Source: Verrucomicrobia bacterium LW23
GTDB taxonomy: Bacteria; Verrucomicrobiota; Verrucomicrobiia; Methylacidiphilales; UBA1321
NCBI GenBank assembly: GCA_003054695.1
Contig: QAZA01000021.1
Location: forward strand, 1 to 64,000
Reading direction: 5' to 3'
DNA length: 64,000 nucleotides
In this document: in pieces, positions 5,122-13,020 of the stretch
Position numbering within the stretch: the stretch's first letter is position 1
How the letters are laid out: the number at the start of each line of letters is the position of its first letter
The notes under the pieces: model-generated
Database searches by the model: none
Seen by the model: only the letters and a program-made list of their open reading frames with translations
What the model was told of the DNA's origin: nothing
Program-made: the position numbers and the translations under genes

Positions 5122-5465
5122 GGGTTTCGACGACGCTATGGGGCGGGAGAAAGATCCATCCGGCAAAGAGAAACCGGCAAGAATTACCTAGCCCAACAGG
5201 ATTTACACGGCTCTTTTTGAGGATCAGGCAAGGATTTCCGGGCAAGAACGACCCTTAAACCGGAAAAATCCTCAAAGTGCAGCAACCTCGTATTGGAAAC
5301 TTTAGAATTGTTTTTACGCGTTTTAAAGGAAAAACACGCATGTATCAATCACGCGCCGCAAATTTTTTCAGATTTTTTCCTTCCACTTTCAGAGAGCATT
5401 TGGTTCAATTCCACTCATCAGGCAACACTATACGTCGCCTGATGGGAAGGAGGTGAAAAGATACA
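5122..5465 (+). promoter_or_regulatory. Structured leader of the first pilin gene
   Basis: No gene fits these 340 bases. They hold a nested hairpin: TGAGGAT (5218-5224) with ATCCTCA (5268-5274) outside and TTTCCGG (5235-5241) with CCGGAAA (5260-5266) inside. The segment AGGAT at 5231-5235 could pair with the same ATCCT, giving an alternative fold. Downstream, an 8-bp hairpin CATCAGGC/GCCTGATG (5416-5423, 5437-5444) ends directly against the Shine-Dalgarno GGAAGGAGGTGA (5445 onward). The A/T-rich middle (5290-5400) is the likely promoter area. The structures are read from the sequence; a regulatory role is inferred. Confidence 0.45.
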
Positions 5466-5669
5466 ATGATGACCAAAATTCTTTCCAAGTTCAAGTCCCT
5501 TAAGGCTCGCAAGAGCAAGTCCGGTCAGACCCTCGTGGAATACGCGCTGATCCTGGCGTTCATTTCCGTGGTCGCGATCCTGGTTCTCCAGCAGCTCGGT
5601 GGTGAAATCACCAAGGTGTTCGGCACGATCAAGAGCAAGCTTCAGGAAGCGCAGGTTGCTTCCACGTAA
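5466..5669 (+). CDS. Flp/Fap-type pilin subunit 1
   Basis: A 67-residue class IVb prepilin. A short, basic leader (MMTKILSKFKSLKARKSKSG) ends in Gly, after which QTLVEYALILAFISVVAIL gives the Flp signature: cleavage after Gly, Glu at +5, Tyr at +6, then a 20-residue hydrophobic helix. A TadV/PilD-type prepilin peptidase would cleave it in the membrane for assembly by a Tad secretion apparatus. No assembly genes lie in this window. The Shine-Dalgarno AAGGAGGTGA, 10 bases upstream, fixes the start. Downstream lies a hairpin with the conserved CAGTCCAATCCTG loop. The mature part is nearly identical to subunit 2. Confidence 0.93.
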   Translation: MMTKILSKFKSLKARKSKSGQTLVEYALILAFISVVAILVLQQLGGEITKVFGTIKSKLQEAQVAST

Positions 5670-5687: not shown

Positions 5688-5730
5688 GATCCTCGAGCTT
5701 GGCAGTCCAATCCTGTTTAGCTCGATGATC
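5688..5730 (+). ncRNA. Pilin 3' hairpin element, copy 1
   Basis: Starts 19 bases after the pilin 1 stop codon. The stem TCGAGCT/AGCTCGA (5693-5699, 5719-5725) is perfect and extends outward, past one mismatch, by GATC/GATC. The apical part holds CAGTCCAATCCTG (5703-5715), in which CAG can pair with CTG around TCCAATC. No T tract follows, so it is not a classical terminator. Copies 2 and 3 share the 13-mer but have different stem sequences. Confidence 0.6.
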
Positions 5731-5802
5731 CCCTTCCCCCAGGCTTTCACGCATTAGGCAGCAGCCAGTGGCAGTCGCAAAAAAAGCAACTTCTCTCAGT
5801 AC

Positions 5803-5847
5803 CCGCCTTTAGAGGACACAGGTCCACAACATTGGCGGATTTTTTTT
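5803..5847 (+). terminator. Probable terminator between pilin 1 and pilin 2
   Basis: CCGCC (5803-5807) pairs with GGCGG (5834-5838), with an inner GGAC/GTCC hairpin, followed by a run of eight T (5840-5847). The stem is short and the loop large, so efficiency is uncertain. Confidence 0.5.
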
Positions 5848-5906
5848 GCAACGAATTTTCCAGCACGCGTCTAACAAGCACAAGCACGGGCAACGCACCC
5901 GGCTGA

Positions 5907-5916
5907 AAGGAGGTGA
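5907..5916 (+). promoter_or_regulatory. Strong Shine-Dalgarno that sets the pilin 2 start
   Basis: AAAGGAGGTGA-type sequence lies about 9 bases before ATG 5925. An in-frame GTG at 5913 lies inside this site and therefore cannot be the true start. The same near-perfect anti-SD complement precedes pilins 1 and 3 (about 5447 and 6465) and the Cys-rich peptide gene at 12480. Confidence 0.8.
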
Positions 5917-5924
5917 AAGTACAA

Positions 5925-6131
5925 ATGATGACCCAAATTATTTCGAAGCTCAAGACTCTGGCTCTTCGCCGCAAGAGCAAGTCCGGTCAGACCCTGGTTG
6001 AATACGCCCTTATCCTGGCGTTTATCTCCGTGGTCGCCATCCTGGTCCTCCAGCAGCTCGGTGGTGAAATCACCAAGGTGTTCGGCACGATCAAGAGCAA
6101 GCTCCAGGAAGCGCAGATCGCCTCTACGTAA
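5925..6131 (+). CDS. Flp/Fap-type pilin subunit 2
   Basis: A 68-residue prepilin, a close paralogue of subunit 1. The leader is MMTQIISKLKTLALRRKSKSG and the processed protein again starts QTLVEYALILAFISVV with Glu at +5; the C-terminal half (GGEITKVFGTIKSKLQEAQ) matches subunit 1 almost exactly at protein and nucleotide level, pointing to recent tandem duplication. The start is ATG 5925, chosen because the Shine-Dalgarno overlaps the more upstream GTG. It has its own leader, its own 3' hairpin (6155-6194) and its own terminator (6267-6293), so it can be transcribed separately. Confidence 0.93.
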   Translation: MMTQIISKLKTLALRRKSKSGQTLVEYALILAFISVVAILVLQQLGGEITKVFGTIKSKLQEAQIAST

Positions 6132-6154
6132 TCCTGTACCGGCTACCTTTGAAT

Positions 6155-6194
6155 TCCTCAGGTGTTTTCAGTCCAATCCTGGAAATCCTGAGGA
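6155..6194 (+). ncRNA. Pilin 3' hairpin element, copy 2
   Basis: The stem TCCTCAGG/CCTGAGGA (6155-6162, 6187-6194) is 8 bp and perfect. The apical region contains CAGTCCAATCCTG (6169-6181), flanked by TTT and GAAA that can extend the CAG/CTG pairing with one bulge. The stem sequence is unrelated to that of copy 1 apart from its position. Confidence 0.6.
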
Positions 6195-6266
6195 TGATCT
6201 GTTTACAGCCCCCTGGAGTCACTCGCAGAAGCAGCTTCTGACGTATTGCACTGGGCAACTATTTCC

Positions 6267-6293
6267 TCCCGTGTTCCACACGGGATTTTTTTT
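6267..6293 (+). terminator. Rho-independent terminator after pilin 2
   Basis: A 7-bp stem TCCCGTG/CACGGGA (6267-6273, 6279-6285) with a 5-nt loop is followed by eight T (6286-6293). It lies about 75 bases beyond the copy 2 hairpin, showing that the hairpin and the terminator are separate elements. Confidence 0.85.
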
Positions 6294-6487
6294 GCCCAGG
6301 TCAAGTATTGCCGCCCCCCTGCGTCCCCTTGCCTGCGCATCCAATTCGGACAGCGAACCGCCGGCACTATTGTGGCCCCTTTGTGAAGATTTACATCAGG
6401 ACAGCGCTTTTAGCTTTCCATTTCGCTCAATCTGTCATAGTAGTTAGAATCATAGCGTTCTCGTAAAGGAGGTGGATAAAATATATC

Positions 6488-6712
6488 ATGAGCCATATCC
6501 TTTCTGTTTTCCGATCTCATATGGATCGTCGTCGTCGCCATCAACGTAAATCCGGCCAGACACTGGTTGAGTATGCGCTGATTCTGGCGTTCATTTCCGT
6601 CGTCGCCATCCTCGTGCTCCAGCAACTGGGCGGCGAAGTCGTCAACGTCTACAACAAGATTTACACGAAGATTCAGGAGGCCCCCACCGCTTCGTCCGGC
6701 TTCAGCGGGTAA
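6488..6712 (+). CDS. Flp/Fap-type pilin subunit 3
   Basis: A 74-residue prepilin. The leader is longer and more basic (MSHILSVFRSHMDRRRRHQR, then KSG), and the mature part starts with the same QTLVEYALILAFISVVAILV block. The C-terminal part diverges (GGEVVNVYNKIYTKIQEA, then PTASSGFSG), so this may be a minor or differently used subunit. The AAAGGAGGTG at 6465-6474 sets the start. A third copy of the CAGTCCAATCCTG hairpin follows. Product and processing are confidently predicted from the signature; its role relative to subunits 1 and 2 is unknown. Confidence 0.92.
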   Translation: MSHILSVFRSHMDRRRRHQRKSGQTLVEYALILAFISVVAILVLQQLGGEVVNVYNKIYTKIQEAPTASSGFSG

Positions 6713-6787
6713 CCGCCTGTTTCTCCTGTCGCGGGGTCCGGAAATCCGTCCCTTTCTGTTACCTTTCCGGTACCTTGCAGTTTCCAA

Positions 6788-6830
6788 GGGATTCGAGTCC
6801 CGCAGTCCAATCCTGCTGACTCGAACGCCC
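6788..6830 (+). ncRNA. Pilin 3' hairpin element, copy 3
   Basis: The stem TTCGAGTC/GACTCGAA (6792-6799, 6818-6825) is 8 bp and perfect, with a possible outer GGG/CCC. Inside, GCAG/CTGC closes the conserved TCCAATC loop, so CAGTCCAATCCTG is at 6803-6815. The position is 79 bases after the pilin 3 stop. No T tract follows. Confidence 0.6.
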
Positions 6831-12093: not shown

Positions 12094-12477
12094 CGCGACC
12101 TCATTCTCTTCTGCAAAGCGCTTAGTGATCCGACGCGGGTGCGCATCGTAAAATTGTTGTGCATGACGGAGGCGTGTGTCTGCGAGTTGTGCGATGCGCT
12201 GGAAATAAGCCAGTCGACGCTTTCGACACATCTTCAGGTCATTCGGCAGGCAGGATTAGTCGCTACCCGAAAGAAGGGGACATGGATCTACTACAGTATT
12301 GATCCGACAATCATGGGTCTTCTCGAGACTTTGTTCGCCCATAATCAGGATGCGCTCAGCTCCGACAGGCGAATGGAAACGGACAAACAACGAATGCAAC
12401 AGCGCACTGCCCTGCGCGAAGCTGGAGAGTGCCTGCTTGGATTCGATGTACTTCAAACAGGAAAGGAGGTGAAATAA
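12091..12477 (+). CDS. arsR: ArsR-family metalloregulator (first copy)
   Basis: A 128-residue winged-helix repressor. The helix-turn-helix is ISQSTLSTHLQVIRQAGLV, with the beta-wing ATRKKGTWIYYSI. The As(III)/metal site is indicated by CVCELC at residues 29-34, just before the recognition helix, as in ELCVCDL-type ArsR proteins. The ATG at 12091 follows the family length; earlier in-frame codons would add an unrelated N-terminus. Its stop codon lies 2 bases before the ATG of the Cys-rich peptide gene, whose Shine-Dalgarno is inside the arsR coding end, implying coupled translation. Confidence 0.9.
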   Translation: MRDLILFCKALSDPTRVRIVKLLCMTEACVCELCDALEISQSTLSTHLQVIRQAGLVATRKKGTWIYYSIDPTIMGLLETLFAHNQDALSSDRRMETDKQRMQQRTALREAGECLLGFDVLQTGKEVK

Positions 12478-12479
12478 TC

Positions 12480-12638
12480 ATGATTCGAATCATTATGCTG
12501 GCTGCCTGCTGCGCAGCTCTCTTTTCGGCCCAATCAGTATATGCCTCTGAGGGCGGAAACTGTGCCGCGAGTTCAGGATGTTGCTCGGATTCACAATGTT
12601 CAGATCGGCAGGAATGCCCTCCCTGTGAGCAGTGCTGA
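12480..12638 (+). CDS. Small Cys-rich exported peptide
   Basis: A 52-residue peptide. The AAAGGAGGTGA at 12462-12472 selects ATG 12480. Residues 1-22 (MIRIIMLAACCAALFSAQSV then YA) form a signal peptide; the mature 30 residues contain seven cysteines arranged as C..GCC..QC..EC..C..C. This suggests a periplasmic or secreted metal or metalloid ligand. It does not match a family I recognise. It is directly downstream of an ArsR regulator in an arsenic island, so binding of As(III) or a soft metal is a reasonable inference. A hairpin at 12661 probably ends the transcript. Confidence 0.75.
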   Translation: MIRIIMLAACCAALFSAQSVYASEGGNCAASSGCCSDSQCSDRQECPPCEQC

Positions 12639-12660: not shown

Positions 12661-12687
12661 AAATCGGAGGTCCCATCCCTCCGATTT
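12661..12687 (+). terminator. Hairpin after the Cys-rich peptide gene
   Basis: A perfect 10-bp stem AAATCGGAGG/CCTCCGATTT (12661-12670, 12678-12687) with a 7-nt loop lies 22 bases after the stop codon. There is no good T tract, so it may be a weak or Rho-assisted terminator or an mRNA-stabilising end. Confidence 0.55.
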
Positions 12688-13020
12688 GCGATTTGAAGTC
12701 TATGGAGCCGCGGCCTGCTCCACGGTTGCTGCGTCACAAGTCGCAAGATAACCCTCGGCATCAATCTCCGCGCGAAAGGGGCGGATTCGGCTCAAGTTGG
12801 ACCTATAAAGTGCCGACGTCACTTGGGTAGGTTTCAATCCTTTCATGAATGGGGCGCTTCACGCCCCAGGGAGAAAATCTCCCTCCCGATAAAAGGGCGC
12901 ACTGGAATGCGAAAATTGAAAGAGTTGTAAACACATGTTATTCTACAAGTAACGCCATCTCATGTCGTCCCGAGAGATCCAGGCGGATGTGAGAGTGCAA
13001 AGTTCATTTTAAGCGACGCC
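12688..13020 (+). promoter_or_regulatory. Leader of the PhnD-like gene with tandem hairpins
   Basis: No gene is visible. Two adjacent perfect hairpins occur: GGGGCG/CGCCCC (12851-12856, 12862-12867) and AGGGAGA/TCTCCCT (12868-12874, 12878-12884). They lie about 140 bases before the start of the binding-protein gene, in an otherwise AT-rich leader (12900-12960). Confidence 0.4.

Follow-up and report, generated by a model that had tools for sequence, protein, structure and literature searches.

A hairpin with a conserved loop in the 3' untranslated regions of Flp pilin genes in a family of Verrucomicrobia

Intrinsic (Rho-independent) terminators consist of a G+C-rich hairpin downstream of a gene, directly followed by a U-tract. 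It is also established that hairpins lacking a U-tract can stop 3'-5' exonucleases, for example at malE, and the mRNA of the pilin papA is protected by its own terminator hairpin (PMC5927463). There is also precedent for a 3'-UTR motif tied to one gene family, namely the L17 downstream element (PMC2864571). As to loops, that of the tRNA T-arm has seven bases and carries the hallmarks G53, U54, C56, A58 and C61 (PMC7912444).

The Flp pilin hairpins described here, found in a window of 64,000 nucleotides (the whole stretch of DNA analysed) from Verrucomicrobia bacterium LW23, share features with each of these systems. They occupy the same place after the gene as intrinsic terminators and have a U-tract in a sister genus (g3), but in the genus of LW23 the U-tract is missing, the loop sequence is conserved, and two copies are accompanied by separate terminators downstream. 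Like the malE and papA hairpins, they are stable post-gene structures predicted from their sequence to be able to stop 3'-5' exonucleases, again on the message of a pilus subunit; the malE and papA hairpins have no family-wide conserved loop, whereas in the pilin element the loop is kept and the stem varies (PMC5927463). The L17 downstream element is comparable as a structured candidate RNA motif found solely in the 3' UTRs of a single gene family, but differs in its host gene, its many G-U pairs and its GNRA tetraloops (PMC2864571). Rfam gives no hit in the window above the gathering threshold, only sub-threshold chance hits, and membership of any Rfam family was rejected on these scores. No paper on a 3' hairpin element at flp genes was found in the open-access literature. 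The pilin hairpin is real and restricted to one family, and it appears to be a hitherto undescribed form of 3'-UTR hairpin, with a proposed mechanism that is moderately supported.

Hairpins downstream of the six Flp pilin genes

Three Flp pilin genes lie on the forward strand of the window: gene 1 at 5466-5669 (67 aa), gene 2 at 5925-6131 (ATG at 5925) and gene 3 at 6488-6712 (74 aa). All three match PF04964 (Flp/Fap pilin; E-values of 1.5e-10, 6.5e-11 and 2.5e-8, respectively), in agreement with an earlier, sequence-only reading of the region. They are tandem paralogues with a DNA identity of 74-90%, the coding DNA of genes 1 and 2 being 90% identical. A near-perfect Shine-Dalgarno sequence (AAGGAGGTG) precedes each of them (5442-5460, 5905-5918 and 6466-6478), which is consistent with high expression.

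Each gene is followed, 19-79 nt past its stop codon, by a forward-strand hairpin with a stem of its own. Hairpin 1 (5688-5730) is composed of the outer stem GATC-c-TCGAGCT/AGCTCGA-t-GATC, the inner stem GGCAG/CTGTT and the loop TCCAATC at 5706-5712, with a minimum free energy (MFE) of -20.8 kcal/mol, a z of -5.4 against dinucleotide shuffles and a covariance model score of 38.0 bits. Hairpin 2 (6155-6194) has the stem TCCTCAGG/CCTGAGGA, the inner stem TTTTCAG/CTGGAAA and the same loop at 6172-6178 (MFE -20.9 kcal/mol, z -3.8, 31.5 bits), and hairpin 3 (6788-6830) the stem TTCGAGTC/GACTCGAA, the inner stem GCAG/CTGC and again TCCAATC, at 6806-6812 (MFE -20.1 kcal/mol, z -3.2, 30.6 bits). The stability of each is matched by only 0 or 1 of 200 shuffles. 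The 13-mer CAGTCCAATCCTG occurs at 5703-5715, 6169-6181 and 6803-6815, each time after an Flp pilin gene, with no further site in the 6.6-Mb genome. The sequence-only reading had reported this 13-mer, its positions, the distances to the stop codons and the differing stems correctly, but had taken the whole 13-mer for the loop; because its CAG and CTG ends pair with each other, the true loop has 7 nt and not 13, UCCAAUC, closed by a G-C pair.

Exactly six PF04964 genes are present in the whole genome, the three of the window and those on contigs C18, C21 (at 117.5 kb) and C50. The latter three have a strong hairpin soon after the stop codon, with unrelated stems and the loops G-UCCGAUU-C, G-UCCAACC-C and G-UCCGAUC-C. 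Position after Flp pilin genes had been suggested as a check, and the hairpin is found at all six, with the loop G-UCCRAYY-C and stems that are different and mutually compensated. Among eight aligned hairpins, double-sided changes affect 12 of 13 stem pairs and the covariation score is 0.854, against 0.307 for shuffled sequences and no more than 0.330 when the structure is slid, although these counts favour structure somewhat because the hairpins were partly picked for pairing; the cleaner set consists of the six pilins of the genome, which were taken by position alone. For 13 sequences of the genus g2, the score is 0.239 against 0.129. When the genome was scanned with the covariance model, its five training hairpins were recovered and only pilin-linked sites exceeded 15 bits, while the sixth, bulged hairpin was missed, so that the model is not fully sensitive.

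Distribution in the family and resemblance to tRNA T-loops

The genome was placed in a Methylacidiphilales-like family of Verrucomicrobia (f1). The main pilin of genus g2 is followed by the hairpin ...GAG-A-AG UUCCAUU CU-CUC..., and in genus g3 the hairpin reads ...AAAGAG UCCAAAC CUCUUU... or ...AAAGAG UCCUAAU CUCUUU... and is followed by a U-tract. A hairpin with the loop GUYCNANYC stands after 20 of 48 f1 pilins (column-permuted motifs: mean 0.68, none above 20), a count that is only descriptive, because the motif was defined after part of the loops had been seen. The controls are the genome scan and 99 pilins from outside f1 (drawn from further families of its order and class and from different phyla), none of which carries it; the same loop was accordingly rejected for the Flp pilins of Methylacidiphilum-like MAGs, Selenomonadaceae, Chloroflexi and other Verrucomicrobia. 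Within f1, the hairpin accompanies the main pilin type and not a second type that ends in ...LLDTAQSSH or similar. The exact 13-mer has a single match among 60 relatives, in G036, which is neither part of a hairpin nor located at a pilin hit, and it was rejected as a motif elsewhere. Flp pilins of other Verrucomicrobia families (L290-L315) are often trailed by strong hairpins that have no U-tract and unrelated loops, which suggests that pilin mRNAs of the class may commonly bear a 3' hairpin.

In a MAFFT alignment of 14 hairpins, only G53, U54, C56, A58 and C61 (tRNA numbering) are invariant, and positions 55, 57 and 59 are among the variable ones. The loop shares with the tRNA T-loop its seven bases, the closing pair G53-C61, Y60 and the identities of U54, C56 and A58, of which U54 and A58 form a reverse Hoogsteen pair in T-loops. 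It differs in having C55 in most copies and a position 57 that is not only purine; the pilin stem is also much longer than that of a T-arm, and no D-loop partner was found (PMC7912444). The sequence-only reading knew of no described motif with such a loop, a statement that this resemblance corrects. The pilin loop is nevertheless T-loop-like in sequence rather than a proven or canonical T-loop, since U55 and R57 never occur together in any of the hairpin loops, C55 is found in this genus, and TrmFO and TrmA, candidate readers of the T-arm, are not above the curated cut-off in the whole genome. The weak hits of these two are probably MnmG-like and RumA-like proteins, and both enzymes were rejected as partners of the loop. 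The loops of g2 are also matched by GUUCNANNC, a T-loop consensus that is applied to eukaryotic enzymes modifying this loop and is linked to Pus4/TruB. The resemblance was noticed post hoc and is thus a testable lead and not a finding; five fixed bases would match one named motif by chance about once in a thousand, by the analysis's own estimate before correction for the number of motifs that could be compared.

Origin and possible roles of the hairpin

The reading preferred here, to which about even chances are given, is that Flp pilin mRNAs carry in their 3' UTR a conserved RNA element acting in cis: a terminator-derived hairpin that would define and protect the mRNA 3' end, and whose loop would additionally be selected, probably for protein or RNA binding. 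Its basis is the comparison of a strong stem, free to vary while pairing, and a heptaloop kept as G-UYCNANY-C, after all six pilins of the genome and the main pilin of sister genera. The stem would descend from the intrinsic terminator of the pilin gene, as which it still serves in g3; in the genus of LW23, the U-tract would have been lost from the hairpin, with transcription ending further downstream. There, 3'-5' exonucleases would trim the message back to the hairpin, which would then protect the abundant pilin mRNA; like a 3'-protective hairpin, it is a stable structure 3' of the gene that lacks a U-tract. Less certain are the steps that concern the loop, which may be kept for a compact, T-loop-like fold and/or because a partner, either RNA or an RNA-binding protein, reads it; such a partner may act on all pilin copies jointly.

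If the 13-mer were common by descent only, with stems that pair by chance or are unrelated to the loop, the tandem arrangement of the three paralogues would be its natural setting. Apart from the 13-mer, however, their 3' UTRs are alike only at about the level of shuffled sequences, the stem of every copy pairs, with compensatory changes, and the loop class is common to other genera. The sequence-only reading had named duplication without paired stem changes as the outcome that would speak against selection for an RNA structure whose loop stays fixed; the six paralogous hairpins and their relatives support such selection instead, and a mere leftover of duplication is extremely improbable and in the main refuted. 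Genes 1 and 2, with 90% identity and yet such divergent 3' UTRs, show stems replaced under a retained loop rather than passive inheritance. The suggestion of the sequence-only reading that the structured region keeps the copies from recombining has no support. A further reading takes the hairpins for ordinary intrinsic terminators whose U-tract is weak or missing in this genus and whose loop is kept only for hairpin stability or folding speed. In g3 and G006, TTTTTT comes immediately after the same element, and terminators occupy this position behind most other Flp pilins of the order. Against this, the G+C-rich hairpins of LW23 have no U-tract directly after the stem in any of the six copies, which extends to the whole genome what had been noted for the window; loop sequences of terminators are usually not conserved, and the order's other pilin terminators have unrelated loops. 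Two of the copies have a separate U-tract terminator downstream: the C18 pilin and gene 2, the latter at 6267-6293 on the forward strand (TCCCGTGTTCCACACGGGA + TTTTTTTT, 6267-6285 in a shorter delimitation), the sole terminator found by a scan of the pilin 3' UTRs. That of gene 1 is weak, and none was found for three of the six genome copies, gene 3 included, so that the earlier placement of the true terminators further downstream is, within the window, clear for gene 2 only. The parallel claim that the hairpins are not terminators fits this genome, but not g3, where the same element with its U-tract is an ordinary one. Ordinary terminators are considered rather unlikely for LW23, and a terminator origin of the hairpin is probable because of the U-tract terminator in g3.

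The loop might also be the primary functional site, bound by an RNA-binding protein or a T-arm-binding enzyme (TruB-like) that coordinates the pilin copies, with the stem only presenting it. The five invariant hallmark bases (PMC7912444) and the g2 loops point in this direction, but the C55 of this genus leaves no target for pseudouridylation, TrmFO requires U54U55C56 (PMC4033218), and a protective role alone would account for the stem, which makes this reading decidedly unlikely. Coordinated control by a small RNA or a kissing partner would also be possible through a conserved loop exposed on six mRNAs. Such a base-pairing target is very improbable: conservation is interrupted at 55, 57 and 59, a pattern that fits a structured loop more readily than a seed for base pairing, because the variable positions lie between fixed ones; a search of the genome's reverse strand gave no match to the exact 13-mer, and no obvious complement was seen by eye in the pilin 5' regions. 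A family-specific 3'-UTR element with a T-loop-like cap, read by a dedicated RNA-binding factor that sets pilin mRNA levels jointly across dispersed copies, is unlikely. The element is a bacterial 3'-UTR RNA associated with a single gene family, with clear selection on structure plus loop, in a group whose RNA biology is little explored, and it connects the subunit of a surface pilus with an RNA loop of recognisable type. It also suggests a route by which a terminator hairpin may gain a second, selected feature, and the T-loop resemblance opens a direct biochemical test.

Similar hairpins elsewhere in the genome

A scan of 2.06 Mb of the genome gave only nine T-loop-like hairpins of 10 or more pairs, against an average of 3.5 for permuted motifs. 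Four are at pilin genes, two belong to a duplicated Cys-rich gene, and the pstC coding sequence contains at least one; with these numbers, a general class of 3' hairpins across the genome was rejected. One of the Cys-rich pair is a perfect 10-bp hairpin with the loop G-UCCCAUC-C at 12661-12687, about 22 nt past a small Cys-rich secreted-protein ORF (12429-12638), and the same hairpin follows a paralogue of this ORF on contig C56 (L179:5895-5921). Both ORF copies adjoin an ArsR-type regulator. Although the loop fits the pilin motif, the two hairpins may reflect simple duplication, because their stems are identical. On the reverse strand at 12700-12846, there is a short fragment similar to the C terminus of a thioredoxin reductase-like protein, which matches the end of an intact gene beside the paralogous Cys-rich locus and, judged by this match, is probably the edge of the duplicated segment.
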